A DNA stretch of 64,000 nt, taken from positions 22,304 through 86,303 of the forward strand of contig JABDHF010000002.1 in NCBI GenBank assembly GCA_013285595.1, given 5' to 3'. The position numbers and the translations under genes were made by a program. Source of the DNA: Bacteroidota bacterium (lineage in GTDB: Bacteria > Bacteroidota > Bacteroidia > Chitinophagales > Chitinophagaceae). Every line of letters starts with the position of its first letter. The first letter of the stretch is position 1. This document shows, piece after piece, positions 6,396-47,394 of this stretch. Under the pieces are notes generated by a model. It was given only the letters and a program-made list of their open reading frames with translations. It was not told where the DNA came from and ran no database searches.

Positions 6396-9300
6396 CTAAT
6401 TGCTAACCACAACCTTCGCCACATAACTTCTGTTAGCAGTAGCTGCTGTTATAAAATAAACACCAGCTGCCGCATTAAGTTTCAGCTCTGCATCTTTGTT
6501 GGCAGTAGTACTAAATTCCCTAACCTTTTCGCCTACAAGATTAGTGATGATCACCCGTACCGGCTCATCCGTTGCCGATGATAATACTATAGTGAATGTT
6601 CCATTATTAGGGTTAGGCCATACACGCAGCAGCTCTCTTTCTCCGGCAACAGCTTGTACCGCGCTTCCAGCAGGTGTACTGCACACTGATACCGGGAATA
6701 CAGCAACAGCCTGGCCACATGCATTACTCAACGTATACACAATAGTATCAGCCCCCGATGCCATACCCGTAATGATAACACCTGTGGGAGTTGCCGTAAT
6801 GGCTACGTTGTTATTGCTGGTAGTCCATGTGCCGCCCGGCAGTGTTACGGCCAGCGTATCCTTAGTGCCCACGCATATGGATGTTCCACCTGTAATAACG
6901 CCTGCTGCAGGCAATGCGCCTATGGTTACGGTATAATTTGCAGTCGCCGTACCGCACATGTTCGTAACAACATAGGTTATCGTATCAATACCCGTAGATA
7001 CAGCATTCACGATACCGGCACTGTTAACGCTCACGTGGCTGTTAGCCACGCTCCAGCTTCCACCTGTTACTGCGTCGGCCAGTGTAATATGGATTCCTGT
7101 ACACAGGGCATCATCCCCGGTAATGGGCGCTACTTCCGGTAGTGCATTTACAGTTATCGGTTTTTCAGCCATGGCAATACCACAACTGGTGGTAACGGTA
7201 TATTTTATAGTATCTAATCCTGCGGTTACACCGTGAATTGTACCGCCGGCAGCCGTTGTTGCCGCAGTGCTATTGCTCCATACCCCGCCGGCAGCCGCAT
7301 CTGCTAATGTAATATTGTTGCCCGCACATACACTGGCAGCTCCCGTTATTACACCTGCAAATGGCAATGGATTAATGGTAACGGATCTTGTGGCCACAAC
7401 GCTGCCGCAACTATTGCTTACCGTATAGCTGATAATGCTTGTACCCACTGCTACCCCTGAAACAAAACCATCCAAAACCGTTACCGAGAGATTACTTCTG
7501 CCCCATATGCCCCCCGGCGCCACATCTGATAACGCGGTAACATCACCTATACACACAGAAGCAACACCATCAATACTACCCGCAGATGGAGGTACATCGA
7601 CCGTTATAGTCTCTGCCGATGAGCAACCGGTAGGCAATGTATAGCGAACAGAAGTAGTACCCGCTAATATCCCGGAAATAACACCAGCGCCTGAAATTGC
7701 ACCCACCGCGGTATTACTGCTGCTCCACGCGCCACCAGCCGTGGTATCACTTAGGTTTTCGGTACTTCCTAAACATAAATGATTCAGCCCTACAACCGGA
7801 CCCGGTGATGGGTTTACTATCAGCGTTGTCGTAGTATAGCAACCAAGCAGCAATGTATAAGTAACCGTAGTGATCCCCGAAGAATAAGGTGTTACTACAC
7901 CCGTAGACGATATGCTTGCCGAAGTGCTTGTCCAGAAACCTCCCGTTACAGCGTCAGACAGGGATAGCGTACTGCCATAAGCACACATATCACCCATCCC
8001 CGTTATTGGTGGCACCGCTATTACGGTTACTAAACGTATGGCCGTGCATCCTGCACTGTTGGTATAACTTATAGTAGACGCGCCCCCGGTCAATCCATTG
8101 ACCACACCGCTGCCCGTGATCGTAGCAATTGCTGTATTACTGCTGCTCCAGGCGCCGCTGGCCGATGCATCGGCCAGCAACGTAGCATAACCAATGCATA
8201 CCTCTGTAGTGCCTGTAATAGGCAACGGCGTTGCATCTACAGTCACTATCGCAGTCACTGTGCAGCCTGCACCCATAGAGTAAGCAATAACAGCATTCCC
8301 GGCAGATACACCGGTTACCAGCCCGGTTGATGCCACTACCGTTGCCACCCCTGGTGATATACTGCTCCATACACCGCCACCTACATCTGATAATGAGGTG
8401 GTTGTTCCTGCGCATATCCTTGCAGCCCCGCTTATAGCCGCCGGCAGCGAATTAATGCTAACTATCGTAGTTCTTATACAGCCGTTTACTGCATAGCTAA
8501 TGGTGGCCGTCCCCAGGTCGTTACCACTAACGGCACCGGTGGCAGACACCGTGGCCACCGTTGTATTATCACTGCTCCATACCCCGCCACCCACGGCATC
8601 GCTGAGCAATGTTACAGCGCCAACACAAATACCGGTAATCCCAGAAACAGGTGGTGGCGCGCTATTGATACTTATAGTAACCGCAACGCCGCACCCTGCA
8701 GCCAATGTGTAGCTAACTATTGCCGTACCCGCAGCTACCCCGGTAATATCCCCGGTCAGGGCATTTGCGTTGGCAATGCCCGTATTACTGCTGCTCCATA
8801 TGCCTCCTGTAGCAGCATTCCCCAGCGTTGTCATCGTACCTGCACATACATGCAGTATGCCGGTTATAGCGCCCGGCAGTGTGTTCACCGTTACCGTTGT
8901 ATTTACGGCACAGCCATTTACAGTATAAGAAACCATAGCAGTGCCCGCAGTAGCAGTGGTTACCACTCCTGTACCACTTATCGTAGCCGCAGTAGTAGCA
9001 GCAATGCTCCATATGCCACCTGTAGCAGCATCGGCAAGCAACGCCGTGGCGCCTGCGCATAAATTAACTGTTCCTGTTATAGCCGCCGGCGCAGCATTAA
9101 CTGTAGCTACTGCCGATGTAGTGCAGCCACCGCCCAGGGAGTAAGTGATCGTTGTAGTACCATGAATACTACCAGACACAACCCCCGAGCCTGTAACCGT
9201 AGCCACCGTAGTATTGCTGCTGGTCCATACGCCGCCACTGGCGCTATTGCCCAGAGTAGTAGTTGCTCCTGCGCATACACTCAGCACACCACTTATAGCA

Positions 9301-12300
9301 GACGGGGCAAGATTCACTGCCACCACACTGTTGATAATGCAGCCGGCGGGAGTAGTATAAGTGATCATAGCAGTACCCGGGGTACTGCCTGTTACTAAAC
9401 CGGCAGCATTCACCAAAGCTATAGAGGTTGCCCCGCTGCTCCATGTGCCACCCGTTACCGCGTCAGATAATGTTGTTGTGGCTCCCACACACATACCAGT
9501 ATTCCCCGTTATCGTGGCAATAGGATTTACTGTCACTACCTTCGTTACCACACAGGTTGCACCCAGTGAGTAGGTAATATTAGTGGTACCGGGCAATGCC
9601 CCCGTCACCGTGCCCGTGGCATCAATGCTGGCAATAGCAATATTGCTGCTTGTCCATGAGCCACCAGCTACTGCATCGCCTAGTATAGTTGTGGCGCCCG
9701 CGCACACATGCAGCGTACCCGATATTGCTGATGGTGTCAGATTCACCGTTACCATCGTGCGGGTCATGCAGCCTGCCCTGGTATATGTGATGGTATCAAC
9801 ACCTGCAGCACTACCTGTCACCAATCCCGTGCCCGATATATTGGCAACCGTTGTAGTGTTGCTGCTCCATACACCTCCTCCTGTTAAGTCAGCCAGTTGT
9901 GTAGTGGCGCCTATGCATATGCTTGTTCCCCCGGTTATAGCCAGCGGGGCAGGATTTACCGTTATTGTTTTATTTACAGTGCAGCCCGTACCCAGTGAAT
10001 AGGCAATACTGGTAGTGCCTGCTACCACACCTGTTACAATTCCGTTCAGTGAACCTATGGTAGCCACGCCCGTATTACTGCTGCTCCACGCGCCACCACC
10101 TACAGCATCGTTCAGGCTCATAGTATCGTTAGCGCATACAGCAGCGCCTCCTATGATCGCTGTTGGCGAAAGGCTTACGGTAATAGTAGTAAGCGCAGTG
10201 CAGCCGGCGGTAGTAGTATATTTAATAACCGTAGTGCCCGTAGCTGCACCGGTTACTGTACCCGACGATCCTACAGTGGCCACACTGGTGGAAACACTTA
10301 TCCAGGTGCCACCTGCAGGGCTCGTACTTTCGGTTATTGTTGCACCCACACATTCTGCGGTAGGCCCTGTAATGGGCGATGGCAGCGGGTTTATACTCAT
10401 TATAGCTGTTCGTGTGCAGCCTGCTGTGTAAGAAATTACCGCAGTTCCACCGCCAACACCGCTTACCACGCCACCCGGCGTTATGGTAGCTACAGAGGCT
10501 GGGCTGCCCGTCCACAGGCCACCGGTGGCCACATCATGCAGTGTAAGTGTGGCGCCCGCGCAAATGGCAGCTACTCCGGTAATAGCCGGAGGCAACGCAT
10601 TTACAGTGATCACTGCACTTCTACTGCAGCCGGTAGGTAAGGTATACGTTATTGTAGCGGTACCGGGTACCGAGCCACTTATCATACCTGTAGCGTTTGT
10701 CGTTGCTATGATCGTGACGCTGCTGCTCCATGTCCCTCCTGTCGAAATATCGCTTAGCAGTGTAGTTGCTCCGGGGCACATACTCATACTGCCGCTTATA
10801 ATTGCCGGCAAGGGGTTGATAGTTATCGTAATATGCGCGGTGCAGCCATTGGCTGCAGAGGTAAACGTGATCGTTGCCGTACCGCCCGCTACACCGGTGA
10901 TAACACCTGAGGACGAGCCTGCAGTAGCAATAGCAGTATTATTGCTGCTCCAGGTGCCGGTGCCATCGCTTAGCAGTGTAGTGCCTGCAGCGCAGGCAGC
11001 AGCAGTGCCGCCTATAGCCGGGGGCAGCGGGTTTACCGTTACAATAGCCGTTGAGCTGCAACCCACACCCAGCGAATAGGTGATGACAGATGTGCCGGGT
11101 ATTATACCGCCCGTTATACCTGTGGCGCCTATCGTTGCTACCCCGGTATTGCTGCTGGCCCAGGTGCCACCGCCACCATCAGTAAGGGTGGTGGTGAGCC
11201 CCGGGCATAAATGGATTGTACCACCTATAGGGCTTGGCGATGAGTTCACCGTAACAATGGTAGTCACAGAGCAGCCCGTAGGCAGCCTATATACGATAGA
11301 GGCAATGCCAGGGCTATTCCCCCGCGCCAGGCCGGTGGCTATATTCACCGAAGCTACAAAGGTGTTACTGCTGCTCCAGGTGCCACCGCTTGTAGCGTCG
11401 CTAAGAGTTGTTGTAAGGCCGGCGCACACTACTGTAGTGCCCGTTATAGCCAATGGCAGCGGGTTCACCGTAACTATTGCGGTAACGGTGCAGGTAGCAA
11501 AGGTGTAAGATATAGTCGTTGTGCCTGGCGATACGCTATATAAGCCACCTATGCCATCTATTGTTGCTACCGTTGTATTGTCGCTGCTCCAGCCACCACC
11601 GCTTATATCGTCGTTTAAAAAAGTGGAGGCTCCCGCACATACTGAGAATATGCCGGTTATAGGTAGCGGCCCTATGTTAACGGTCAATATCGCCGTTGCA
11701 GCACAAGTGGTGCCCAGGGTATACGAGATCGTGGTAGTGCCGGTAGATAGCGCCCCCGCTGTTACAACACCGGAAAACGGATCGATAGCCGCTGTAAAAG
11801 AGTTACTGCTTGTCCAGAAGCCCCCTGTTGTGGCATCTGTTAAAGTGGTAGTAGTACCCATACAGATATTGAGTGCGCCGGCGATGGGGGCCGGCACTGG
11901 GTTCACGGTCATTATGGCGGTAGCAGAGCAGCCGCCGGCCATGGTGTAAGATATAACCGAGGTTCCCGGCGCTCCACCCGTTACATTCCCGGTAGCCACT
12001 ATAGATGCTACTCCCGTATTGCTGCTCCCCCAGGCGCCGCCTATAGGAGTACAAGACAACAAAGACGTTGATCCCTGGCAAAGAAGAATGTTCCCTGATA
12101 TAGAAGATGGCTGTGGATTAACAGTAACTATTTTCGAGGCGCTGCAGCCTCCTGCTATGGTATAAGTAATGGTTACCAGGCTCACCGCGGTAACATTACC
12201 ACCTGTCACAATGCCTGAGCCAACATTTACCGTAGCAATAATGGTATTGCCACTACTCCAGGTGCCACCCGTGGTCGACTCGCTTAAAGTAGTCGTTGTG

Positions 12301-13634
12301 CCACTGCACACCGCCGCTGTGCCGGTAATAGGTGTCGACAGTGAATTCACTGTCGCTGTTGCTGTCGTTGCACAGCCGGTAGGCAATGTATAGGTGATCA
12401 TTGATGTACCCACCGCCACGCCACCCAATACGCCGGTCCCGAATCCCGCAGTGGCAATACTGGTATTGCCGCTGGTCCAGGTGCCGCCTGTCAGGCCATC
12501 ACTCAGTGTGGTGGTTACCCCCTGGCACACGCTTAGGCTGCCGGTAATTGCCGTGGGCAGCGGGTTTACAGTTACAGTTATTATGGAGTATACACTGCCG
12601 CATGGAATGGTAACAGAATAAGTGATAATGGCCGTTCCTGCTGATATTCCGGATACGACCCCTGAGGAAGATACTACCGTGGCAATGGCTGTATTGTTGC
12701 TGGTCCATGTGCCGCTGCTGTTGCCTACAGTATCTATAAGCGTTGTTGTGGTGCCGTTGCAGATTGATGTATTTCCCGTTATAAGCCCGGCGCTGCAGTT
12801 CACAACTATACTCACATAACCATTGCCCGTGCGAACGCCCGGGGTAGTAGTACCACCGGTTACTCCCACGCCGCCATAAAACGACGATCCGCCACACCCG
12901 CTCCCGCTATATGACCCGCCGGCGCCGAACCAGCCGCCGCCGCCACCGCCGCCCCAGAAATTACCAAATGCATCTCCTCCAAACCCAAATCCGCCTGCCG
13001 TTCCGTTTTGCCCTACCATACTAGAACCCAATGTTCCTCCCGACACCTGCGTCCCGGGCGAACCTGCCTCTGCCGGATTGTACGCTGTGCAGGATATCCC
13101 GGTTCCCCCGGTAAGTCCACCGCCAACGCCTCCATTTTCGTTTCCGCAATCCCACGCGCCGCCACCGCCGGCGCCCGCAGCTATTAAACGGCTGCTCAAC
13201 GATGTAGCAGGGCTTGCCGTATAAGATACGGTACGTATATCTGTAGATCCGCCACCGGCAGCGCCACCCTCATTCATGCTTCCGGCGCCGCCATTCGCGC
13301 CCCCTCCCGAATTAGTGCCACCAGGAGGTGGGGCCACAAGGCCACATGGGTAGCACCCTGCAGTGCCTTTTTGCCCTACATAAATATACAGTAGCTCACC
13401 GGGCGTTACCGCTAAGTTGCATTGCACACGCCCCCCCAGCCCGCCCGATGCTACAGGCGCCGTAGTATAATCGCCGCCCTGGGCGCCATAGATATCTGCA
13501 CTAAGGGATATTACCCCTGGCGGAACCGTATAAATTTGTACAGCGCCGGTATACACATAGGTGCTTGTTTGGGCTGATGTCTTGCAGAAACATCCGGAAA
13601 GGATGAGTAAAAGGAGAGTTAGGGTACGTTTCAT
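6396..13634 (-). CDS. Giant T9SS-sorted adhesin-like protein: glycine-rich N-terminal domain, ~28 Big-like repeats, C-terminal sorting domain
   Basis: 2412 aa; signal peptide MKRTLTLLLLILSGCFCKTSAQ; Gly-rich block (aa ~30-280); about 28 manually counted 'ITGxxxVCxGxTTTLSDxxxGGxWSSSN' units; C-terminus 'LLRVWPNPNNGTFTIVL..GVYFITA..VAKVVVSN'. Confidence 0.92.
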   Translation of the reverse strand: MKRTLTLLLLILSGCFCKTSAQTSTYVYTGAVQIYTVPPGVISLSADIYGAQGGDYTTAPVASGGLGGRVQCNLAVTPGELLYIYVGQKGTAGCYPCGLVAPPPGGTNSGGGANGGAGSMNEGGAAGGGSTDIRTVSYTASPATSLSSRLIAAGAGGGGAWDCGNENGGVGGGLTGGTGISCTAYNPAEAGSPGTQVSGGTLGSSMVGQNGTAGGFGFGGDAFGNFWGGGGGGGWFGAGGSYSGSGCGGSSFYGGVGVTGGTTTPGVRTGNGYVSIVVNCSAGLITGNTSICNGTTTTLIDTVGNSSGTWTSNNTAIATVVSSSGVVSGISAGTAIITYSVTIPCGSVYSIITVTVNPLPTAITGSLSVCQGVTTTLSDGLTGGTWTSGNTSIATAGFGTGVLGGVAVGTSMITYTLPTGCATTATATVNSLSTPITGTAAVCSGTTTTLSESTTGGTWSSGNTIIATVNVGSGIVTGGNVTAVSLVTITYTIAGGCSASKIVTVNPQPSSISGNILLCQGSTSLLSCTPIGGAWGSSNTGVASIVATGNVTGGAPGTSVISYTMAGGCSATAIMTVNPVPAPIAGALNICMGTTTTLTDATTGGFWTSSNSFTAAIDPFSGVVTAGALSTGTTTISYTLGTTCAATAILTVNIGPLPITGIFSVCAGASTFLNDDISGGGWSSDNTTVATIDGIGGLYSVSPGTTTISYTFATCTVTAIVTVNPLPLAITGTTVVCAGLTTTLSDATSGGTWSSSNTFVASVNIATGLARGNSPGIASIVYRLPTGCSVTTIVTVNSSPSPIGGTIHLCPGLTTTLTDGGGGTWASSNTGVATIGATGITGGIIPGTSVITYSLGVGCSSTAIVTVNPLPPAIGGTAAACAAGTTLLSDGTGTWSSNNTAIATAGSSSGVITGVAGGTATITFTSAANGCTAHITITINPLPAIISGSMSMCPGATTLLSDISTGGTWSSSVTIIATTNATGMISGSVPGTATITYTLPTGCSRSAVITVNALPPAITGVAAICAGATLTLHDVATGGLWTGSPASVATITPGGVVSGVGGGTAVISYTAGCTRTAIMSINPLPSPITGPTAECVGATITESTSPAGGTWISVSTSVATVGSSGTVTGAATGTTVIKYTTTAGCTALTTITVSLSPTAIIGGAAVCANDTMSLNDAVGGGAWSSSNTGVATIGSLNGIVTGVVAGTTSIAYSLGTGCTVNKTITVNPAPLAITGGTSICIGATTQLADLTGGGVWSSNTTTVANISGTGLVTGSAAGVDTITYTRAGCMTRTMVTVNLTPSAISGTLHVCAGATTILGDAVAGGSWTSSNIAIASIDATGTVTGALPGTTNITYSLGATCVVTKVVTVNPIATITGNTGMCVGATTTLSDAVTGGTWSSGATSIALVNAAGLVTGSTPGTAMITYTTPAGCIINSVVAVNLAPSAISGVLSVCAGATTTLGNSASGGVWTSSNTTVATVTGSGVVSGSIHGTTTITYSLGGGCTTSAVATVNAAPAAITGTVNLCAGATALLADAATGGIWSIAATTAATISGTGVVTTATAGTAMVSYTVNGCAVNTTVTVNTLPGAITGILHVCAGTMTTLGNAATGGIWSSSNTGIANANALTGDITGVAAGTAIVSYTLAAGCGVAVTISINSAPPPVSGITGICVGAVTLLSDAVGGGVWSSDNTTVATVSATGAVSGNDLGTATISYAVNGCIRTTIVSINSLPAAISGAARICAGTTTSLSDVGGGVWSSISPGVATVVASTGLVTGVSAGNAVIAYSMGAGCTVTAIVTVDATPLPITGTTEVCIGYATLLADASASGAWSSSNTAIATITGSGVVNGLTGGASTISYTNSAGCTAIRLVTVIAVPPITGMGDMCAYGSTLSLSDAVTGGFWTSTSASISSTGVVTPYSSGITTVTYTLLLGCYTTTTLIVNPSPGPVVGLNHLCLGSTENLSDTTAGGAWSSSNTAVGAISGAGVISGILAGTTSVRYTLPTGCSSAETITVDVPPSAGSIDGVASVCIGDVTALSDVAPGGIWGRSNLSVTVLDGFVSGVAVGTSIISYTVSNSCGSVVATRSVTINPLPFAGVITGAASVCAGNNITLADAAAGGVWSNSTAATTAAGGTIHGVTAGLDTIKYTVTTSCGIAMAEKPITVNALPEVAPITGDDALCTGIHITLADAVTGGSWSVANSHVSVNSAGIVNAVSTGIDTITYVVTNMCGTATANYTVTIGALPAAGVITGGTSICVGTKDTLAVTLPGGTWTTSNNNVAITATPTGVIITGMASGADTIVYTLSNACGQAVAVFPVSVCSTPAGSAVQAVAGERELLRVWPNPNNGTFTIVLSSATDEPVRVIITNLVGEKVREFSTTANKDAELKLNAAAGVYFITAATANRSYVAKVVVSN

Positions 13635-19087: not shown

Positions 19088-19885
19088 CTACTCTGTGTCG
19101 TTGGCTTTCCTCATAGAATAATGCTTCTTAAACCAGATCGGATCATTTTTCTTTTTTCTCTTATCCCACTTCATCTTTTTATCTACTCTTTTGAAGTGGG
19201 CAAACATCTTAAAATCCGTTCCTTCCTCAGAATTATCAAAATAGTATGCCTGATAAGCAATTTGTGAGGCCTCAAACAACAATTCAAGAGAGCGATAGTA
19301 TCTGCTAATGATTTTATCCTTCGGAACGTCATGCCCTCCCTTTGTCTTTCTCGCTAGCACCCTAAATGTATTGATGTGTGGAGATTCAGTTGAAACAAAG
19401 TATAGGTATACTTTGTAACCCATGTTGGCAGCCTGTTTCATTATATCCAATTTAGACGGATGTGAAAAAACAGTCTCAAATGAAAATTTCTTTTTTTCCA
19501 GCAATAATTTTTTTCGCAGGAAATCTGCGATTATCTGAGCCAGCCTTTCATCAACTTTCTTATCTCTTAGTTTAAGATTATTGTCTTTAAGGGTATAGGA
19601 TTTTTTGAAAGCCGTCTCATCAAATTCTCTGCCGATGAGACCAGATTCTAAAACAATCTCAACAAACTCATTAGCACTTACTTGTATTTCGTAGTTGTCA
19701 AATGAAAATTCGCCTTCTCTTAAGCTTCTCGCAATATCGTCCGCATTTATATAAATCCCAAAGTCAATGGGCCGTCCATTTACTTTTTGATCTCGCACAT
19801 ATTGTATTACTGTACTTTTACCTGAGCCATTTGGCCCTGCAAATACTCGTAACCGAAGATGAGTATCTGTTTTAGAAGAACGCAT
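19088..19885 (-). CDS. Zeta toxin-like P-loop kinase
   Basis: 'LRVFAGPNGSGKSTVIQYV' Walker A, 'YINADDIARSL', 'FSFETVFSHPSKLDIM'. Confidence 0.8.
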   Translation of the reverse strand: MRSSKTDTHLRLRVFAGPNGSGKSTVIQYVRDQKVNGRPIDFGIYINADDIARSLREGEFSFDNYEIQVSANEFVEIVLESGLIGREFDETAFKKSYTLKDNNLKLRDKKVDERLAQIIADFLRKKLLLEKKKFSFETVFSHPSKLDIMKQAANMGYKVYLYFVSTESPHINTFRVLARKTKGGHDVPKDKIISRYYRSLELLFEASQIAYQAYYFDNSEEGTDFKMFAHFKRVDKKMKWDKRKKKNDPIWFKKHYSMRKANDTE

Positions 19886-26056: not shown

Positions 26057-26076
26057 ATAATAAAGAGTTATCCTTC
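26057..26076 (-). repeat. Inverted-repeat arm 2R
   Basis: Reverse complement GAAGGATAACTCTTTATTAT; overlaps the stop codon of the upstream recombinase gene. Confidence 0.88.
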
Positions 26077-27033
26077 ATTGGAACAACTAAATATATCAAT
26101 AGAGAAATCCTTTCTAGGGTGTTTTGTTCGAAGAATTTGTTTCTGTTTTTCCTTATTGACATGCGTGTAAATTTGTGTAGTCATTATAGAACTATGACCT
26201 AGCATGGATTGAATGTATTTTATGTCAACATCTTTTTCCAGAAGAAGAGTTGCAAAGGAATGTCTAAAGACATGGGGGGTAACGTGCGTTTGTATTTTCG
26301 CTTTCTTTGATAAGGCACTTACAATATTTCTTATAGACTGATCGGATAGTTTATTGTTGAAGCGATTTACTAAGAAATAGTCATTAGCAGCTTTTATTTT
26401 GCTATGAGATATTCGCCTATATTTTTTCAAGAGAGTAATAGTCTCTTTATTGCAGATCTGAATAATTCGTTCCTTTTCCCCTTTTCCTTTTATGATAACT
26501 TGGCCAGAATTCAAGTCAATTTGATTATCCTTGAGGTTCGAAATTTCAGAAACTCTTCCACCAGTCGCAAAGAGCAGTTCGATCACCGCAATATTTCTTA
26601 TCTCTGCAAAATATGAATAACAGTTTTTGTCTTCCGACGTTGCATTAGCGTTATATACGGACTTAAAGATGTCGCAAATTTCTTTTATGTTCAGTGCTCG
26701 TGGAAGTTGTTTAGGTTCCTTTATTTTTATCCGCATTTTTCGCAACGGATTCAATGAAACAACATCATCGAATTCTAGATAGTTGAACATAGCTTTGATT
26801 GTTGCAATCTTTCTTTTTATTGATTTAGCTTTTAGACCTGAGATTACTTCCAGATAATCACGCACCTCAACCTTTGTAATTTTGACAACGTCTATACTAT
26901 AGCCTTTGTCCAACAAGAACTTCTGGAATTGATTTAAATCGGTCTGATATGCCTTTATCGTTTTTGAGCTAAGGTTCTTTTCAAATTTGCAGTGACTGAT
27001 AAATTCGCTTGTAGCAATTGGAAGAGTACACAT
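26068..27033 (-). CDS. Tyrosine site-specific recombinase, Xer-like
   Basis: 321 aa; 'LLFATGGRVSEISNL', 'HVFRHSFATLLLEKDVDIKYIQSMLGHSSIMTTQIYTHV' (R..H-x-x-R..H..Y). Confidence 0.92.
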   Translation of the reverse strand: MCTLPIATSEFISHCKFEKNLSSKTIKAYQTDLNQFQKFLLDKGYSIDVVKITKVEVRDYLEVISGLKAKSIKRKIATIKAMFNYLEFDDVVSLNPLRKMRIKIKEPKQLPRALNIKEICDIFKSVYNANATSEDKNCYSYFAEIRNIAVIELLFATGGRVSEISNLKDNQIDLNSGQVIIKGKGEKERIIQICNKETITLLKKYRRISHSKIKAANDYFLVNRFNNKLSDQSIRNIVSALSKKAKIQTHVTPHVFRHSFATLLLEKDVDIKYIQSMLGHSSIMTTQIYTHVNKEKQKQILRTKHPRKDFSIDIFSCSNEG

Positions 27034-27615: not shown

Positions 27616-28365
27616 CTAGATGTTTTTCAGTTTGTTTACCACATTCTTAATATACCAATTGGGCAATTCCTCCTCTGGTACTTGCAAATGGATTTTCTTG
27701 TCTCGATTTACGCGGGCGATCAAATGTGAGCTCTCTTTTGAGTTATCAAACAGATAAGACTTGTAACTCGCCTTTAGCGCATTCAACAATAACCCAAGAG
27801 ACCGAGAATATCTCGCTTTGATTTTATCAGCACTCACATGATGGCCGCCTTCAGCTACCCGTGTAGCTACCCTGTCAATATTCAATTTGTAGTTATCAAG
27901 ACAAACATAATATAAGTACACTTTATATCCTTGCTCGGTTGCTTTCTTGATAAAGGAAACTTTGTCCTTGTGGCTCATTACAGTTTCAAAAGAAAAATCG
28001 TTCCCGTTTTCAAGATTAAACTCTCTTAAGAACTCGGATATTATTGCAGCAGAATATTTAGGCGTTATGTCGGTTATAGACTTAACTTTCAGATTGTTTC
28101 TTTCTACAAAAAAGATCGATTTGAGTTTATCAAGATCGGACTTCTCTTTCACAAAAGAAGATTGTTCGAAAAAGTTATAGAGTATTTCTGTATTAGCTTT
28201 GACCCCGTATTTATTTAGACCTATCCCAAGCCCATTTGTAATGCTTCTTTCAATATCATCCGCATTAATATAATAACCAAGATCAACGGTAGAAGGAAGT
28301 AATTGCAGGATTGTTGATTTGCCTGATCCATTAGGCCCTGCGAAAATCCGTAAGCGTTTTTCCAT
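27616..28365 (-). CDS. Zeta toxin-like P-loop kinase, second copy
   Basis: 'LRIFAGPNGSGKSTILQLL', 'YYINADDIERSI', 'FSFETVMSHKDKVSFI'. Confidence 0.8.
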   Translation of the reverse strand: MEKRLRIFAGPNGSGKSTILQLLPSTVDLGYYINADDIERSITNGLGIGLNKYGVKANTEILYNFFEQSSFVKEKSDLDKLKSIFFVERNNLKVKSITDITPKYSAAIISEFLREFNLENGNDFSFETVMSHKDKVSFIKKATEQGYKVYLYYVCLDNYKLNIDRVATRVAEGGHHVSADKIKARYSRSLGLLLNALKASYKSYLFDNSKESSHLIARVNRDKKIHLQVPEEELPNWYIKNVVNKLKNI

Positions 28366-35200: not shown

Positions 35201-36679
35201 ATGGCACAAGAATTCATTAAAGCTGCTGCCGATATTTTACGAGACCATGGAGAGCCTTTGCTTGTAAAAGACATTTATCATCTTGCCCTTGAAAAACAGA
35301 TATTAAAATCGGGAGGAAAAACTCCTGTTAATACTCTTAGGGCAAGGCTATCAGAGCATATTCGAAGAGAAAAAGAAGCATCACTATTTAAGCGTATTAG
35401 TCCAAATAGATTTGCTCTTAGAGAATGGGATCAATTTACAGAATATAAGGCTCCTCCTTTTGACAAGAATAGAAGTAAGGAAGTAGTTGTTTGCATTACT
35501 CAAGAACTAGTTGACAAGAACGGTCGCTTTTTTGGATTCTCAACTCGATTTCAGCCATACTTGAAGGATCTGGAAGACACAGCTAATATCTTGTTGATTA
35601 ATCGCGAGGAGGCGAAAAATAGGACTGATATTAAGCAACTCGTTTCTTATGTACTTATTAGAGATGCCCAAGGGAGGATCTTATCATTCGTTAGGGGAAG
35701 CTATGGCCAAAAGGAGAGCCTATTATTAGGAGTCTTATGCATTGGATTTGGCGGCCATGTTAATAATAAAGACATTGATTTATTTACTGAAGATGCTGGC
35801 GTTTCAAATTCTGCCAGAAGGGAAATATATGAGGAAATTAAGGGGTTAGTAATTCAGAACTTAGCTTGTGTTGGTGTTATCAATGATGATTCATCGCCTT
35901 TAGGTTTGAACCATTTTGCTTTTGTCTACGAGGCTAAGCTGCCTAAATGCTTTCCTATAGAAAAGATACATAAAGAGAAAGCGATTAGCAAAGTAAAACT
36001 TTTAGATCCCTATGAGGCATGGGAGAAGTTTCATGAAATGGAATTCTGGTCGCAATTACTCATGAAGAAATTTATACCGAAGCCAGACAGCTACATTCCG
36101 GTATTTGTAAAGGATAAGACAGGACGGTACCATAATGCGCCGTTGGCAATAGTGGGCGAAGTTGGTTGCGGAAAGTCTGAAGCAGCAAGGTTTATGTCAA
36201 ATAGATATGACATGCCAATAGTTTCTACTCGGCAGTGTATTGCCAAGCTTATCAGAGAACCAGATTTTGGCGTTGGAGATCGACAAAAGTTTCAGATAAA
36301 ATCGTTAAAGTTTATTTCACAACCAGATGGAATAAAGAAGCTTGCAGAGAAAATTATTAAAGAAGTCAGGCGTTGTAAAGTGTCCAATGTAATTATCGAT
36401 GGAATAAGAAATGTTGAAACATACGACTATCTAAAAAATGAATTGCCCAATCTGAATCTGATGTATATAGATGTACCACGTGACACCGCATTGGGTTTAT
36501 TCACAAATAGGAGTAGAAATCGCAATGTTAGCATTAACGAATTTAGGCAAGCACGTGATCATCAGGTGGAAAAAGAAATAATACTATTCAAGACAAGAGC
36601 AGATATATATCTTTTCAACGGCGGTACGTTGGGTGACCTAACAAAAACAATAAAAAAATGGTGGGATGAAGCAGAATAA
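35201..36679 (+). CDS. HARE-HTH, Nudix-like and P-loop (nucleotide kinase-like) fusion protein
   Basis: N-terminus 'MAQEFIKAAADILRDHGEPLLVKDIYHLALEKQIL' (HARE-HTH-like); 'GGHVNNKDIDLFTEDAGVSNSARREIYEEIKGLV' (Nudix-box-like); 'AIVGEVGCGKSEAARFMSNRY' and 'NVIIDGIRNVETYDYL' (kinase). Confidence 0.75.
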   Translation: MAQEFIKAAADILRDHGEPLLVKDIYHLALEKQILKSGGKTPVNTLRARLSEHIRREKEASLFKRISPNRFALREWDQFTEYKAPPFDKNRSKEVVVCITQELVDKNGRFFGFSTRFQPYLKDLEDTANILLINREEAKNRTDIKQLVSYVLIRDAQGRILSFVRGSYGQKESLLLGVLCIGFGGHVNNKDIDLFTEDAGVSNSARREIYEEIKGLVIQNLACVGVINDDSSPLGLNHFAFVYEAKLPKCFPIEKIHKEKAISKVKLLDPYEAWEKFHEMEFWSQLLMKKFIPKPDSYIPVFVKDKTGRYHNAPLAIVGEVGCGKSEAARFMSNRYDMPIVSTRQCIAKLIREPDFGVGDRQKFQIKSLKFISQPDGIKKLAEKIIKEVRRCKVSNVIIDGIRNVETYDYLKNELPNLNLMYIDVPRDTALGLFTNRSRNRNVSINEFRQARDHQVEKEIILFKTRADIYLFNGGTLGDLTKTIKKWWDEAE

Positions 36680-37304
36680 ACACAAATACCAAGAAGAGTA
36701 TGAAAACACTGTCGGGCTATTTTGGGATAACAAGCCTGCAAAGTATGTTCGGCTATTTACTGAAACAATACAAAATGATTTGTCTAACTGGAAAGTTCTA
36801 GACCTTGGTGCTGGCGAGGGTAAGAATGCAGTATTCTTAGCGGGATTAGGTGGTAGAATAACAGCAGTTGACATATCGTCAGTGGCTTTATCAAAATTTC
36901 ATTTGCAGCCCAATTACGATAATTACAAGAATAATATAAATAGAGTAAATTGCAATATTTTAGATGTTGCGTTTGAAGAGTTGAGCTTTGATTTGATTAT
37001 CGCTTATGGAATACTTCATTGTCTGTCCGATAAAGAGGAAATAAAGCGGTTTGTTCAGCGGCTAAAAAAATGGGGCAAGAGTGGCAGTTACTTTATCGGA
37101 GCGACATTTACTGACGCTATTCCACCTCCAAGCATTCAAGATTACTTGGGCATTGAGGCCTTTCTTTCAGCAGGCGAGTTTGAAGAGTTATTTGGGGATT
37201 GGAGTGTTGTTTGTAGTGAAGATGCGATAATCACTGAAAGTCACCCCACCTCGGGACTATCTCATCAGCATTCAATAACTAGACTTATAGCCAAAAAAAT
37301 ATGA
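36666..37304 (+). CDS. Class I SAM-dependent methyltransferase
   Basis: 'WKVLDLGAGEGKNAVFLAGLGGRITAVDIS'; start overlaps the previous gene by 14 nt. Confidence 0.85.
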   Translation: MKQNKHKYQEEYENTVGLFWDNKPAKYVRLFTETIQNDLSNWKVLDLGAGEGKNAVFLAGLGGRITAVDISSVALSKFHLQPNYDNYKNNINRVNCNILDVAFEELSFDLIIAYGILHCLSDKEEIKRFVQRLKKWGKSGSYFIGATFTDAIPPPSIQDYLGIEAFLSAGEFEELFGDWSVVCSEDAIITESHPTSGLSHQHSITRLIAKKI

Positions 37305-38125
37305 CAATGCCACACTCTGAGGAAATTCAAAAAGCAAATCAAGAAGGCCGGTTAATACCGTTCGTAGGGTCTGGTTTTTCCAAACCACTTGGTTTGCCTG
37401 ACTGGCGTGGGCTTATTGCTCAGGTTGCCGAGAAAGTTGGATATGAGTCTGATCTTTTTTTTCTACACGGCAGCTACCCTCAACTTTTAGAATATTTGAG
37501 CAGGTATCACCAACATGAATGGAATGAATTTGTTCATAACATGACTGTGAAATTCGATTCCGAGGATGCAGTCCAAAAACGAAAAAAATCACCTACACAC
37601 ATAGCTTTAACGCAGTTGAACGTTAAAACAATTTACACAACAAATTACGATACTCATATTGAGAGTTGTTTGCGTGATAGTGGTAAATGCGTACGAGAGT
37701 ATGCAAGTCTTGCAGACTTTGTCCGGGCAGAAGACAAATCAATTGAATGCGAGGTAATCAAATTTCATGGAACATTGGTCGACCCTTCAACCCTTGTCTT
37801 AACGGAAAGTCAGTATTTCGATAGGATGTCATTAGAAGAGGCTGTGGATCAGCGCTTGAGGTCTGATTTATTAAGCAACAGTTTCTTATTTATGGGATAT
37901 AGTTTCAACGATACCAATATTAGATACATCTGGTATAAAATAAATAAGCTGAAAAGTCTGCAGAATAGGGCTTCTGGATTTACTTTAAGACCTTCATATT
38001 TTGTCACTTTCGGTAACGAGCCTATCCAATCGGAACTTCTGAAAAAGTGGGACATAATCACGATCAATCTTGACCCTGTTGACCCCACAAATAGCCTTGC
38101 TGACTTTCTAAATCAAATAAAATGA
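37301..38125 (+). CDS. SIR2-like domain protein
   Basis: 'IPFVGSGFSKPLGLPDWRGLI', 'TIYTTNYDTHIE', 'EVIKFHGTLVDPSTLVLTESQY', 'FLFMGYSFNDTNIRYI'. Confidence 0.88.
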   Translation: MTMPHSEEIQKANQEGRLIPFVGSGFSKPLGLPDWRGLIAQVAEKVGYESDLFFLHGSYPQLLEYLSRYHQHEWNEFVHNMTVKFDSEDAVQKRKKSPTHIALTQLNVKTIYTTNYDTHIESCLRDSGKCVREYASLADFVRAEDKSIECEVIKFHGTLVDPSTLVLTESQYFDRMSLEEAVDQRLRSDLLSNSFLFMGYSFNDTNIRYIWYKINKLKSLQNRASGFTLRPSYFVTFGNEPIQSELLKKWDIITINLDPVDPTNSLADFLNQIK

Positions 38126-38682
38126 CACAACTCTATTTTAATACGGTCAACAAAAATAAAATGGCGGAAATAACTGCTATTTTTTCAGATGTTGATGTGG
38201 AAATAAAATTTTTGGAGTATGATATTCAAGAAGTATTGTCTCATGACCTGAAAACTGTGATTCAGGCAAAAGCAGCAGAAGCATACAAAGCATGTAGAGT
38301 TCCTGTCATTGTGGAGCATGGTGCATTATGTGTTGAATACTTTAATAATTTTCCTGGGGCCTTATCTAAACCAATGTGGGACTTGATGAATGCGAAAATC
38401 TGCAAATTAATTCCGCATGGAGAAACAAGAATTGCATCTGTGTATTCGGGCGTGTGTTATTGTGACGGCAAAATCAGAAAGTCCTTCATTGAAAAAACAG
38501 AAGGAACAATAGCTATTGATGGAAGGGGAACTTTAGGATTTCAATTTGATCCAATTTTTATTCCAAATGGAGCGACATTAACTTATGCTGAAATGGCACT
38601 TGATGAAAAACTAAAACATTCGCAGGCAGTAAAGGCATATAACATGTTAAAAAAAGAACTTAGACTAAGCAAAAAAAAATAA
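38122..38682 (+). CDS. Non-canonical purine NTP pyrophosphatase-like (HAM1/RdgB family)
   Basis: 'LYFNTVNKNKMAEITAIF', 'VIVEHGALCVEYFNNFPGALSKPM', 'LGFQFDPIFIPNG'. Confidence 0.82.
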   Translation: MTQLYFNTVNKNKMAEITAIFSDVDVEIKFLEYDIQEVLSHDLKTVIQAKAAEAYKACRVPVIVEHGALCVEYFNNFPGALSKPMWDLMNAKICKLIPHGETRIASVYSGVCYCDGKIRKSFIEKTEGTIAIDGRGTLGFQFDPIFIPNGATLTYAEMALDEKLKHSQAVKAYNMLKKELRLSKKK

Positions 38683-38686
38683 AAGA

Positions 38687-39532
38687 TTGGAAAAGAAAAG
38701 CACAGCAGAAATCAAGGGAACAAAAGCAAAGCCATTTTTACGATGGGCAGGAGGTAAAAAATGGTTACAAAAGCATTTAAATTCATTACTACCCACATCC
38801 GGCTTTAATAATTATCATGAACCATTTTTGGGTGGAGGGGCTATGTTTTTTTCCTTACAGCCATCAAATAAAGCATTTTTATCTGATCTCAATAATGATT
38901 TGATTGCAACTTATCAGACTTTAAAAATAGATGCGTCTGAAGTAATTAAAGAGCTAAAAAAATACAAAAATGAAGAAGATTTTTATTATGAAATAAGAGA
39001 TAAGAAATATAGGAACTCAGCTCGTTTGGCTGCGAAATTCATATACCTAAATCAAACTTCTTTCAATGGTATTTACAGAGTAAATCTAAGGGGCGAATAT
39101 AACGTTCCATTTGGCTATCGAACAAAGGACTTTGTTGAAACGGAGAATTTACTATCAGTAAGCAAAACCTTAAAATCTGCGACAATCTTTAATGGCGATT
39201 TTGAATTGGCAACAGACAACATAAAAAAGAAGGATCTGGTTTTTTTAGACCCACCTTACACAGTTTCACACAATGACAATGGCTTCATAAAATATAACCA
39301 AAAGCTGTTTTCGTTAGAAGACCAATACAGATTGAGTAAGTTAATTGATGTCGTTAAATCGAAGGGGGCATACTACATACTAACAAATGCGGCACATGTG
39401 GCTATTGATGAAATTTTTGAGAAAGGAGACAGGAAATTAGAATTGAGTCGAGCTAATTTGATAGGAGGTACTAATGCACAACGTGGCCATACCAAAGAAT
39501 TTATTTTCACTAATATTGAAAACGAATTATGA
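38687..39532 (+). CDS. Dam-like DNA adenine methyltransferase (D12 class)
   Basis: 'KPFLRWAGGKKWLQKHL', 'YHEPFLGGGAMFFSL', 'LVFLDPPYT'. Confidence 0.92.
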   Translation: MEKKSTAEIKGTKAKPFLRWAGGKKWLQKHLNSLLPTSGFNNYHEPFLGGGAMFFSLQPSNKAFLSDLNNDLIATYQTLKIDASEVIKELKKYKNEEDFYYEIRDKKYRNSARLAAKFIYLNQTSFNGIYRVNLRGEYNVPFGYRTKDFVETENLLSVSKTLKSATIFNGDFELATDNIKKKDLVFLDPPYTVSHNDNGFIKYNQKLFSLEDQYRLSKLIDVVKSKGAYYILTNAAHVAIDEIFEKGDRKLELSRANLIGGTNAQRGHTKEFIFTNIENEL

Positions 39533-41841
39533 CAGCAGAACAAAAAGATAAATTTTGGGAGAATATTATTTCTCCTAAAAATTTCAATAGTTTAATTAAA
39601 AATCGGACTAGTCCATTTGTCATAGAATCCGTGCCAGCCGCAAACGAGGCTGAATATATCACTGCTGGATGGACAATCGAAAAACGTTTCAAGAATAAAG
39701 TACGTGTTAAGAAAGCAAAACCGACAGATATATTGTTTGAGGATGAGGTATGGGCTACAATTGCAGAATTAGGGTTTCTGCATTTGAATAAATCCAGAAA
39801 ATTCAAAGTGCCATATTCCGATGACTTGGTATCATCGCAGGACGTTGATGTAGTTGCAGCTGACAATGAAACAATTTTATTAATTCTCTGTAAAGCGACA
39901 GATGGTGAACCTAAAAGAGGAAATTTTAAAGATGTAATTGAAACTATAGGAGGGAGAAAGGAAGGGTTATTGAAAAATCTGAGAAAATTTTTTCCCGGTG
40001 CGAAGCATAAAGTGAAAATTATTTTTGCTACTAAGAACTACATTTTATCAGAACCAGACAAAGAACGATTGGATAATTTCGGCATACTACATTTTGATGA
40101 AGAAATTGTCGCCTATTATAAAGACCTAACAAAACACTTAGGGTTATCGGCCAGATTTCAGCTTCTTGGTAATTTGTTTGAAGGACAAACCATACCAGAA
40201 ATGGATAATCAAATTCCTGCTATTCAAGGGCGAATGGGAGGTCATGTGTATTATTCATTTTCAATTGAACCCGAGAAACTATTAAAAATTGGTTATGTTT
40301 TACATCGAAATAAAGCTAACAAAAAATTGATGCCTACCTATCAAAGGTTAATTAAAAAAGCAAGATTAAAATCAGTACAGAGCTTTGTAGAGAATCACGG
40401 ATTTTTCCCAAATTCGATAATAATAAACATCAACACTAATGGAAAGAAAGTGAGGTTTGATTTTTCTGGATTGCAATCAGAACATTCAATTTCTAAAATA
40501 GGATTGCTATACTTGCCCAAGTCCTATAGGTCTGCGTTTATTATTGATGGGCAACATAGATTATATGGTTATGCCAATTCTATCTATAAAAGTACCAACA
40601 CTATCCCCGTGGTTGCGTTTATTGATCTTGATAGAAATGAGCAGGTCCGTCTTTTCATGCAGATCAATGAAAATCAAAAAGCGGTTCCAAAAAATCTTAG
40701 AAATACGTTGGATTCTGATTTGTTATGGAATTCCGATAAAATTACCGAGCAAATAAAGGCTTTAAAATTACAGATTGCGCAGGACTTAGGTGAAGAATTG
40801 TCATCGCCATTGTTTGACAGAGTTATTGTAGGTGAGAATGTCAAGACGTCTACGCGCTGCATTACTATTGATACTATAAGGCAGGGACTAGAAAGAAGCA
40901 ACTTTTTTGGTGCGTTTTCTAAAAATGCGGTAAAAGCAGAAGGTACCTTTTATAAAGGTAATAACGATGATACATATAATGCCATACTTCCTTTTTTGAT
41001 CGGGTGCTTTAGTTTTATCAAAGAGCAAATACCGGATGAATGGAATAAAGGTGAAAACAACAATGGATTTATTGCAATTAACGCTGGTGTTGAAAATTTA
41101 ATTAGGATTTTTAGCGACATCATTGATCATCTTATTGGGGGTAATAAGCTTAATCCTAAAATTGACAAAACAGACATTGTTGTAAAAGAAGTAGCTTATT
41201 ATTTAGAACCGCTTACGGAGTTCTTTAAAAAGCTCAATAACGAGGAAAAGTCCGATCTAAGAAGAAGTTACGGTACAGGAGGGAGAGTCAAGTATTGGCG
41301 GAGATTGCAGAAAGCAATTAACCAATCAAGAAAGGATTTTATTCCCGATGGTTTTAGTAAATATTGGCAGGATGAAGCAAAGGCATTTAATGAAGATTCT
41401 TTTAGAATGATAAGAGATTTGGAGACGTTCATGAAAAATGATTTTCAACAGAAATTAAAGGATGCATTTGGGAATAAATGGTTTAAAGATGGAGTGCCAA
41501 ACGCAGTTCATATGGACGCAGTTACACGAGCCGCACAAAAAAATTTGGAGAATAGTGAAGAAGAAAATGAAGATTTTGAGCCTTGGGATTGCTTAAATAT
41601 TATCGATTACCGAAAAATTGCTACTTATGGTAAGAACTGGAGCGAAATATTTGAGGGTTGCTATACAATGCCCGGTGAAGAGAAAATAAGAGGTGGTAAG
41701 GAGGAAAAAACCAAATGGATGCAAAAACTTGAAAAGATCAGAAACCAAAATTTTCATTCTTACAGCGTAAAGGAAGATGAGTATAATTTTCTATCTAAGC
41801 TATATAAATGGCTTATTGAAAGAAAAGGGGAAGACGATTAA
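39529..41841 (+). CDS. DGQHR-domain protein (DndB/DpdB-like)
   Basis: 'SAFIIDGQHRLYGYANS', 'FIDLDRNEQVRLFMQINENQKAVPKNLRNTL'. Confidence 0.85.
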   Translation: MTAEQKDKFWENIISPKNFNSLIKNRTSPFVIESVPAANEAEYITAGWTIEKRFKNKVRVKKAKPTDILFEDEVWATIAELGFLHLNKSRKFKVPYSDDLVSSQDVDVVAADNETILLILCKATDGEPKRGNFKDVIETIGGRKEGLLKNLRKFFPGAKHKVKIIFATKNYILSEPDKERLDNFGILHFDEEIVAYYKDLTKHLGLSARFQLLGNLFEGQTIPEMDNQIPAIQGRMGGHVYYSFSIEPEKLLKIGYVLHRNKANKKLMPTYQRLIKKARLKSVQSFVENHGFFPNSIIININTNGKKVRFDFSGLQSEHSISKIGLLYLPKSYRSAFIIDGQHRLYGYANSIYKSTNTIPVVAFIDLDRNEQVRLFMQINENQKAVPKNLRNTLDSDLLWNSDKITEQIKALKLQIAQDLGEELSSPLFDRVIVGENVKTSTRCITIDTIRQGLERSNFFGAFSKNAVKAEGTFYKGNNDDTYNAILPFLIGCFSFIKEQIPDEWNKGENNNGFIAINAGVENLIRIFSDIIDHLIGGNKLNPKIDKTDIVVKEVAYYLEPLTEFFKKLNNEEKSDLRRSYGTGGRVKYWRRLQKAINQSRKDFIPDGFSKYWQDEAKAFNEDSFRMIRDLETFMKNDFQQKLKDAFGNKWFKDGVPNAVHMDAVTRAAQKNLENSEEENEDFEPWDCLNIIDYRKIATYGKNWSEIFEGCYTMPGEEKIRGGKEEKTKWMQKLEKIRNQNFHSYSVKEDEYNFLSKLYKWLIERKGEDD

Positions 41842-42035: not shown

Positions 42036-43139
42036 ATGGAAAGGAAATATACTTTAGACGAATTGGTGCATTTGGCAGAAACCCAAGGGAGCTTAGAGGG
42101 TGTTAGTGGTGTTATTGTACGATTATACGAATCTGGCACACCAACAAGCTTAGATTTGCTTTTAAACCTTGCCTTGTCTGATTATGGAGGTATAACTTAC
42201 AAATCAGACTATCAAATGATTTCGATCATTGGAACAGTCTATTGGGGTGCAGTTGGACTACGCAAATTGGGTGAAAGAGCAATTGCGAATAATGGGTTCA
42301 GAGCGATAACGAACGTAACCTCTTTTTTGAGCCATGTTTCAAGCAAAACACTTAACGAATTCGCATCAACGTATAGAAACTTCGAGAATGTCCAGCAGTT
42401 AGATTTATCAAGTGATAAATACTTGACAGAAGAACTTGTAAGTACTGCAAAAGAAGTATTGATCGCTTTGATCCAATCAGTAGAAAAAGAAAATACTTTC
42501 CCAATGGGGATTATTCACAACTTGGGTTGGGGAGCGAACGAAATCGCCCAAGAACATGTTTTTGCAGCATTAATGGCTAGATGGTTCAATTTTAGTCCCA
42601 TTGGATTAGATAATTATCAAAAGTTAGTATCGAATTCGAAGACAACAGAATCGGAAGTTCACAATTTTCTTAAATCGGCACCATATGTCCTTGAGCCATT
42701 TCATGCTCAAATTTGGTCAAAACCAAAGTTTGGTGAAAAATTGATACCAGATTTCCTAATTAGATCAATGGACAATAATTATACGATCGTCGAAATAGAA
42801 CAACCAAGTTTTTCAATAATTACAAAGTCTGGCGAACTATCGGCGAAAGCCACTCATGCAAAAAGACAAGCGCTGGATTTTAGAAATTGGGCTATCAACA
42901 ATAGCTTATACGCAATCCAAACTTATAAAAATATTTATCGACCATTTTGTTTGGTGGTCATTGGTAATGAATCTACATTAAGTGCTATGCAGGCTGAAAG
43001 ATTGAAACAAGAAAATGAATCTACTCAAGGTGTTCTGAAAATTGTTGGATTTGACTGGCTTTATGCTCGCGCAAAAGCTACTTTTGATAATATCGTAAAA
43101 TTTGGTTTTGAAAGAAACACTTTCAAATCGGTAAGCTAA
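42036..43139 (+). CDS. Shedu-like (SduA/DUF4263-type) nuclease-domain protein
   Basis: 'TESEVHNFLKSAPYVLEPFHAQIWSKPKFGEKLIPDFLIRSMDNNYTIVEIEQPSFSIITKSGELSAKATHAKRQALDF'. Confidence 0.72.
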   Translation: MERKYTLDELVHLAETQGSLEGVSGVIVRLYESGTPTSLDLLLNLALSDYGGITYKSDYQMISIIGTVYWGAVGLRKLGERAIANNGFRAITNVTSFLSHVSSKTLNEFASTYRNFENVQQLDLSSDKYLTEELVSTAKEVLIALIQSVEKENTFPMGIIHNLGWGANEIAQEHVFAALMARWFNFSPIGLDNYQKLVSNSKTTESEVHNFLKSAPYVLEPFHAQIWSKPKFGEKLIPDFLIRSMDNNYTIVEIEQPSFSIITKSGELSAKATHAKRQALDFRNWAINNSLYAIQTYKNIYRPFCLVVIGNESTLSAMQAERLKQENESTQGVLKIVGFDWLYARAKATFDNIVKFGFERNTFKSVS

Positions 43140-46278: not shown

Positions 46279-47394
46279 TCAAAGTTTGAACTTAGGCAAA
46301 CTATCAACAGCTTCACGTTTCTTTGAGTCAATCACCTTTGTATAAATCTGAGTGGTCTTGATGTGGCGGTGGCCGAGCAGCTTACCTACTGTATAAATAT
46401 CGGCACCGTTCGTTAAACTCATTGTAGCCATAGTGTGACGGGCAACGTGAAAAGTTACTTTCTTCTTTATACCAGCAGCCATTGCCCACTCTCGTAATTT
46501 CACGTTGTTCCATGCGCTATAGGTTAAATGAAATACTCTTTCTTTCTCGTCTTTACGTTCGCCTAAGAAATACAATGCTTGCTCTGACACAGGTAAATAT
46601 TCGATACCGCCTGTCTTTTTCTGTTGGAACATTATCATGTCCTCCCTAACTTCCGACCATTTTAGTTTCTCTATATCACTCCAACGCAGGCCTGTAAGAC
46701 AGCTAAACAAAAATGCTCTTTTTAACTGCGGATCATCACACTCGGTATTAATCAACTTTTGAACTTCCTCTGCTGTTAAATATTCTCGCTTGCTATCCTC
46801 TGATTTTACACCGATAGAAGCTTGTGCCGGATTGAAGTTTGTTAGTTTCTCTTTAAATGCTTGTTTAAGACATGCGACAACCTTATTGTAGTAAGAGAAA
46901 ATAGTGTTCTTTGATAATTTTTTCTCGTTTTTAGTTTTTGTTGTTTTTAAGTAAGAGTGCCATTCACCCAGCCAATTTTCATTTACCTGTGATAACATAA
47001 TATTTCCGCTCTCAAACGCTTGTAGGTGCTTTAATGTACTTTGCCAGTTCTGATAATTACTCTCGCTATCTTTTCGCTTTTCCATCTGCTTTTCAAAATA
47101 GTCAGTCAAAGGAATAGTCTTCTTGAAAGCAGGCATAAAGTCATAATCGCCGCTTGATATTTCCAGTTGCCTTTTGGAGCGGATGTTCTCTGCTAACAAT
47201 TCTACATTAGCATTATGGTCACGATTAATCTTGGTAGAGCCTTTTACTAAACGAAGGTTCAAGAACTCATAGTAACGTTTGCCTTGATAGTATATGTCAA
47301 GGAACAGAGTTGTTTCACCACTTTTCAGAACTTTCCTACGAATCTTCACAATTTGATTTTGCCGGGGTGCAGCTTTCTTCTTTTTATTTTCCAT
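46279..47394 (-). CDS. Tyrosine integrase of the island (Arm DNA-binding and SAM-like N-terminus)
   Basis: 'LTGLRWSDIEKLKW', 'TFHVARHTMATMSLTNGADIYTVGKLLGHRHIKTTQIYTKV'. Confidence 0.93.
   Translation of the reverse strand: MENKKKKAAPRQNQIVKIRRKVLKSGETTLFLDIYYQGKRYYEFLNLRLVKGSTKINRDHNANVELLAENIRSKRQLEISSGDYDFMPAFKKTIPLTDYFEKQMEKRKDSESNYQNWQSTLKHLQAFESGNIMLSQVNENWLGEWHSYLKTTKTKNEKKLSKNTIFSYYNKVVACLKQAFKEKLTNFNPAQASIGVKSEDSKREYLTAEEVQKLINTECDDPQLKRAFLFSCLTGLRWSDIEKLKWSEVREDMIMFQQKKTGGIEYLPVSEQALYFLGERKDEKERVFHLTYSAWNNVKLREWAMAAGIKKKVTFHVARHTMATMSLTNGADIYTVGKLLGHRHIKTTQIYTKVIDSKKREAVDSLPKFKL

Follow-up and report, generated by a model that had tools for sequence, protein, structure and literature searches.

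In the Kongming defence system, KomA, a phage deoxynucleotide kinase and the host nucleoside diphosphate kinase (NDK) make deoxyinosine triphosphate (dITP), and binding of dITP to KomB activates KomC, which destroys nicotinamide adenine dinucleotide (NAD+) (PMC12948488, PMC12774641). RdrA and RdrB of the RADAR system make inosine triphosphate (ITP) and dITP during infection (PMC9994260). With these two systems, deaminated nucleotides are already known in cell immunity. Here we describe a 64,000-nucleotide (nt) stretch of DNA (the window) from a Bacteroidota bacterium of the Chitinophagaceae (assembly GCA_013285595.1, contig JABDHF010000002.1, positions 22,304-86,303, forward strand), in which four adjoining genes, g1 to g4, hold homologues of KomC and KomB next to genes for a methyltransferase and for a fusion of Nudix and kinase domains. 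The comparison with known systems suggests that g1-g4 are a variant of Kongming-type defence with different signal-making genes. The reading we favour, although we give it slightly less than even weight, is that of a Kongming-like anti-phage system that depletes NAD+ and is fed by a different signal.

All four genes lie on the plus strand of the window and, together with two further genes (g5 and g6), fill positions 35201-41841, the successive overlaps from g1 to g6 being 14, 4, 4, -4 and 4 nt. The g1 gene (35201-36679) encodes a HARE-HTH domain (residues 5-76; PF05066, 5e-14), a Nudix region with a RExxEE core (residues ~90-290) and a P-loop domain resembling nucleoside monophosphate kinases (residues ~311-490, with GEVGCGKS and DGIRN; PF13207, 2e-6). 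It is followed by g2 (36666-37304), a TehB-like class I methyltransferase dependent on S-adenosylmethionine (SAM) (7e-13) that we propose to methylate a nucleotide, by g3 (37301-38125), a SIR2 NADase (SIR2_2, 1e-26), and by g4 (38122-38682), a HAM1-fold protein (Ham1, 3e-31). A first-pass annotation, made from the letters of the window, had listed the same six open reading frames, coordinates and overlaps, and its domain calls (the HARE-HTH/Nudix/kinase fusion, SAM methyltransferase, SIR2 and HAM1, with Dam for g5 and DGQHR for g6) were borne out by profile matches. It had also taken the six genes for one unit; the tight junctions are real, but the neighbourhoods of homologous genes do not support a single system.

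The genes g1-g4 recur together at two other loci, whose genomes are unrelated. Among 396 genomes of the window's own phylum, one other genome carries a close relative of g3, and the only full-length g1 relative of that sample is found in the same genome. Its locus (L064) keeps the window order from g1 to g5, with identities of 52, 49, 56, 55 and 65%, and is devoid of g6. SIR2 proteins of the g3 kind were present in 13 of the 399 genomes of a Pseudomonadota sample, and in this other phylum the locus L092 has the methyltransferase, SIR2 and HAM1 genes in a row, with the full HARE-HTH/Nudix/kinase protein alongside, no adjoining Dam gene (g5) and no g6 nearby. Additional genome samples yielded no more g1 loci, full-length relatives of g1 were not found in plasmids or phages, and viral contigs scanned with g3 and with the g1 and g3 alignments gave no relative. 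The g1-g4 set is rare. The homologous neighbourhoods show the quartet to be a module separate from g5-g6.

The g3 protein (274 residues) consists of a SIR2 domain only and conserves the NYD and FHG motifs, its catalytic residues Asn115 and His156 being intact. Among solved structures, g3 and g4 are nearest to the two chains of the SIR2-HAM1 complex in PDB entry 9v0g (2e-80 and 9e-51, respectively), followed by KomC for g3 (3e-43) and KomB for g4 (1e-24). In a SIR2 tree, g3, its L064 counterpart, 9v0g and the L092 copy are separated from the KomC group (support 93/98, the L092 branch being long), and this g3 group is sister to the KomC clade. The 9v0g series comprises seven entries with catalytic mutants, among them a chain variant in 9v12 in which both SIR2 catalytic residues are changed to Ala. 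The work behind these structures could already have described the system, an alternative that touches novelty rather than mechanism and that we hold to be on the unlikely side: g3 and g4 are indeed closer to 9v0g than to KomC and KomB, and the mutants exist, but the PDB chains include no homologue of the g1 or g2 type, and no paper naming the 9v0g entries or describing the g1-g4 combination was found in the accessible literature, a scope that excludes most subscription journals and leaves room for prior publication. The first-pass annotation, which did not recognise the combination, overlooked the kinship with Kongming. Its proposal of a modified-nucleotide defence system suits g1-g4 well, given the homology of the SIR2 and HAM1 proteins to KomC and KomB, the modified-nucleotide sensor-effector of Kongming, and the conservation of the neighbourhood.

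In g4 and in the HAM1 protein of L064, the catalytic Asp is replaced by His (VEHG[AG]L), as it is in most KomB copies (VEHT), and the HAM1 chain of 9v0g shares the VEHGAL substitution of g4. In addition, all hosts examined encode a housekeeping HAM1 protein, which has DDSGL and SHR. Since its catalytic Asp is His, as in KomB, g4 looks like a sensor, and the N-terminal N and K that serve the triphosphate remain in g4 and in the L064 protein. The Arg of the SHR motif in inosine triphosphatases reads the 6-oxo group of the base. KomB copies keep this Arg (S[MN]R), whereas SQA is found at the same position in g4 and in the L064 protein, and SPL in 9v0g. The loss of the Arg in g4 and L064 suggests that the ligand is perhaps not dITP.

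The genes g3 and g4 thus resemble Kongming in having a KomC-family SIR2 with intact catalytic residues and a KomB-type HAM1 with an altered catalytic Asp, with a putative nucleotide-modifying enzyme adjoining. However, where Kongming has the adenosine deaminase KomA, g1-g4 have the SAM methyltransferase and the HARE-HTH/Nudix/kinase fusion, and the neighbours scanned at the three loci (window, L064 and L092) included no KomA gene. The gene order also differs: HAM1 precedes SIR2 in L062, L063, L068, L087 and L091, whereas SIR2 precedes HAM1 in the window, L064 and L092. As KomA is missing, the order is reversed and the base motif is different, g1-g4 are not Kongming by membership, and would work like Kongming in the effector half. 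Neither Thoeris nor RADAR matches, with no TIR protein among the scanned neighbours and no C-terminal ligand-binding domain of ThsA in g3, as would be expected of Thoeris, and no PADLOC match to RdrA or RdrB among g1-g9.

Elsewhere, KomB-KomC pairs keep other company. Plasmids of Vibrio, Zymomonas and Novosphingobium carry the pair with an adenosine deaminase, behind which it lies in L063, L068 and L069. In L087 (242-7250), RdrA and RdrB of RADAR are directly upstream of the pair, which suggests that (d)ITP made by RADAR may be read by KomB-KomC. Because the pairs follow a deaminase or RADAR, both of which make inosine nucleotides, the neighbour of KomB-KomC is the expected signal maker, and the simplest reading is that the pair behaves as a plug-in sensor-effector that reads the nucleotide its neighbour makes. 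RADAR deaminates (d)ATP, whereas in the window the methyltransferase and the Nudix/kinase fusion take that place; as g3-g4 follow these two genes, the modification here would most likely be methylation. If KomB-KomC is such a plug-in reader, methylation or other base chemistry may yield additional signals for immunity, and KomBC-like pairs whose neighbours are unfamiliar would offer a direct route to them. Several candidates met while searching for relatives of g3 and g4 were set aside: the plasmid matches L063, L068 and L069, with their HAM1 neighbours, are ordinary Kongming, L062 is a plasmid KomB-KomC pair without visible KomA, and the rhizobial SIR2 matches L070-L072 have no HAM1 neighbour.

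The many KomB-KomC pairs without a visible adjoining KomA, together with the homology of g3 and g4 to KomC and KomB, would also be compatible with an ordinary Kongming variant, in which dITP or ITP comes from another host or phage enzyme and g1 and g2 are regulators or unrelated passengers. We consider this improbable, as g1 and g2 recur beside the pair at all three loci, neither g4 nor the L064 protein retains the SHR/SMR Arg of KomB, and the genes stand in reversed order.

In the window, L064 and L092 alike, the aligned g1 proteins keep the P-loop, DGIRN and the RExxEE core of the Nudix region, and the aligned g2 proteins keep the SAM motif and, at the C-terminus, an HxHSI(T/S)R signature. 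The Nudix region of g1 is related to Tm1382 (3e57, 2e-9) and to phrog_8902 (4.5e-19); a single-sequence AlphaFold model of g1 was unusable (predicted local distance difference test, pLDDT, 35). Two Rhodobacterales plasmids (L100 and L101) encode HARE-Nudix-like proteins that seem to lack the kinase; a Bacillus plasmid (L102) has a related Nudix protein beside nrdEF and a deoxycytidine monophosphate deaminase.

From this arrangement we infer the following enzymatic steps, signal, trigger and phage phenotype. Upon infection, the g2 methyltransferase and the g1 kinase would take a nucleotide, which is probably a (deoxy)nucleoside monophosphate with a purine base, towards a triphosphate that is modified and most likely methylated. 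The g1 Nudix domain would limit or trim the modified nucleotide, and the HARE-HTH domain of g1 may hold the enzyme on DNA. The g4 protein, with its catalytic Asp replaced, would bind the modified triphosphate, leave it unhydrolysed and switch on g3, which would destroy NAD+ and abort the infection. A bolder form of this proposal, which we regard as possible though doubtful, would add a new second messenger to immunity: a methylated (deoxy)nucleoside triphosphate that a dedicated methyltransferase and kinase produce and that a HAM1-fold protein senses, thereby driving a SIR2 NADase. Host DNA methylated by Dam might, on breakdown, also contribute to this signal.

Several observations weigh against a Kongming-like system with its own signal. 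The substrate of g1 or g2 cannot be read from sequence, and g2 could act on something else; the loss of the SHR Arg speaks to the ligand only indirectly. The quartet was found at three loci only, and in one of them, L092, the g1 homologue sits on the opposite strand and the HAM1 gene (7944-8414) has an in-frame TAG stop, because of which this copy looks broken.

Downstream of the quartet, g5 (38687-39532, plus strand, TTG start) encodes a Dam-family adenine-N6 DNA methyltransferase (D12/Dam, 2e-46), and g6 (39529-41841, plus strand) a DGQHR protein (6e-48). A query with g6 of one-genome-per-species records returned 58 loci, in most of which a Dam-type methyltransferase lies directly upstream of the g6 relative; relatives of g3 or g4 were shown at none of them, and about 50 loci have g5-g6 but not g1-g4. 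Because Dam precedes g6 at most loci without g3 or g4 relatives, these neighbourhoods mark g5-g6 as a stand-alone cassette, which would have joined g1-g4 here as a unit of the restriction-modification type. A sub-group of the g6 loci has the order Dam, a protein of ~300 residues, g6 and a further protein, and L018, L019, L021, L043, L047 and L048 represent this variant cassette of Dam, the ~300-residue protein and a g6-family protein. In L019 the ~300-residue protein is a DpnII endonuclease (PF04556, 4.5e-95), and in L018 the protein downstream of g6 is an N6/N4 DNA methylase (5e-56). These two neighbours place g5-g6 near DpnII-type restriction-modification, and the target of g5 is therefore probably GATC, although the window has no DpnII-family endonuclease gene beside g5-g6 and g6 has nuclease-like and HEPN parts of its own. 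The suggestion that the locus is a DNA-modification system accordingly applies to this separable, DpnII-related cassette and not to g1-g4.

The designation of g6 as a DGQHR protein was correct as far as it went, and missed two other regions. An alignment of the family (n=52) reveals an N-terminal PD-(D/E)XK signature, FED...(I/V)Dv.A.D.e..L..ECKs, then DGQHR, then an RNxNxH (HEPN) signature, which in the window copy reads RNQNFH. The earlier statement that no restriction endonuclease is visible needs correction because g6 carries this PD-(D/E)XK signature. The Glu of the ExK motif, present in 43 of the 52 members and missing in the other 9, is Leu in the window copy (position E120), because of which its nuclease-like domain may be inactive. 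An AlphaFold model of g6 built from 48 sequences was confident (mean pLDDT 87); in Foldseek against PDB it gave weak matches, none at E<=0.001, the better of which include many PD-(D/E)XK nucleases (Card1/Cdn1, AF1548, EndoMS, McrC, Hjc and FokI), and the ParB-like protein PadC is also among the weak matches. The DGQHR domain is shared with DndB and DpdB (2e-24 and 2e-20), but g6 falls far below the curated cut-offs for both and has the extra N- and C-terminal domains; we view it as a probable accessory protein of restriction-modification type. As first stated, DndACDE and DpdA partners are absent among g1-g9 (Pfam, NCBIfam and PADLOC), the rest of the window not having been scanned for them.

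The cassette bears on the main rival to a dedicated nucleotide signal, an alarm for breakdown of host DNA. Here Dam (g5) would mark host DNA, phage-driven degradation would free N6-methyl-deoxyadenosine monophosphate, the g1 kinase would carry it towards the triphosphate, g4 would sense it and g3 deplete NAD+, with g2 tuning the signal or modifying it further. L064, which retains Dam with g1-g4 in the absence of g6, agrees with this, and so does the Leu in g6 of the window, with which the benefit may come from methylation and not from cutting. Dam, however, usually travels with g6, the Glu is missing in 9 of 52 g6 proteins, which makes the Leu weak evidence, and g2 is left without a clear job. 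We rate this explanation as rather unlikely and keep it merely as a rival because the L092 quartet has no adjacent Dam. A single DNA-modification defence system made up of all six genes, as the tight junctions (including g4-g5 and g5-g6) and the company of g5 with g1-g4 in L064 might suggest, is very unlikely and was rejected, as homologous neighbourhoods show two modules, with g5-g6 at about 50 loci without g1-g4, L064 without g6, and L092 without g5 and g6 nearby.

The g1-g6 operon is located in a low-GC stretch (G+C fraction ~0.35 against 0.45-0.54 outside) that covers roughly 14-48 kb of the window, in an assembly that is partial (59.6% complete). Two tyrosine recombinases are encoded in this stretch (26068-27033 and 46279-47394), the second near mnmE. 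No exact repeats of at least 13 bases joining the integrase end with the rest of the island were found, an Rfam search for RNAs gave no match, and promoter and terminator scans gave results at chance level. Directly downstream of g1-g6, a Shedu-like SduA_C protein (42036-43139) is a second likely defence gene of the island. The minus strand of the island encodes two Zeta-toxin-like P-loop proteins (19088-19885 and 27616-28365), and just beyond its edge lies a repetitive, probably secreted protein of 2412 residues (6396-13634, minus strand).

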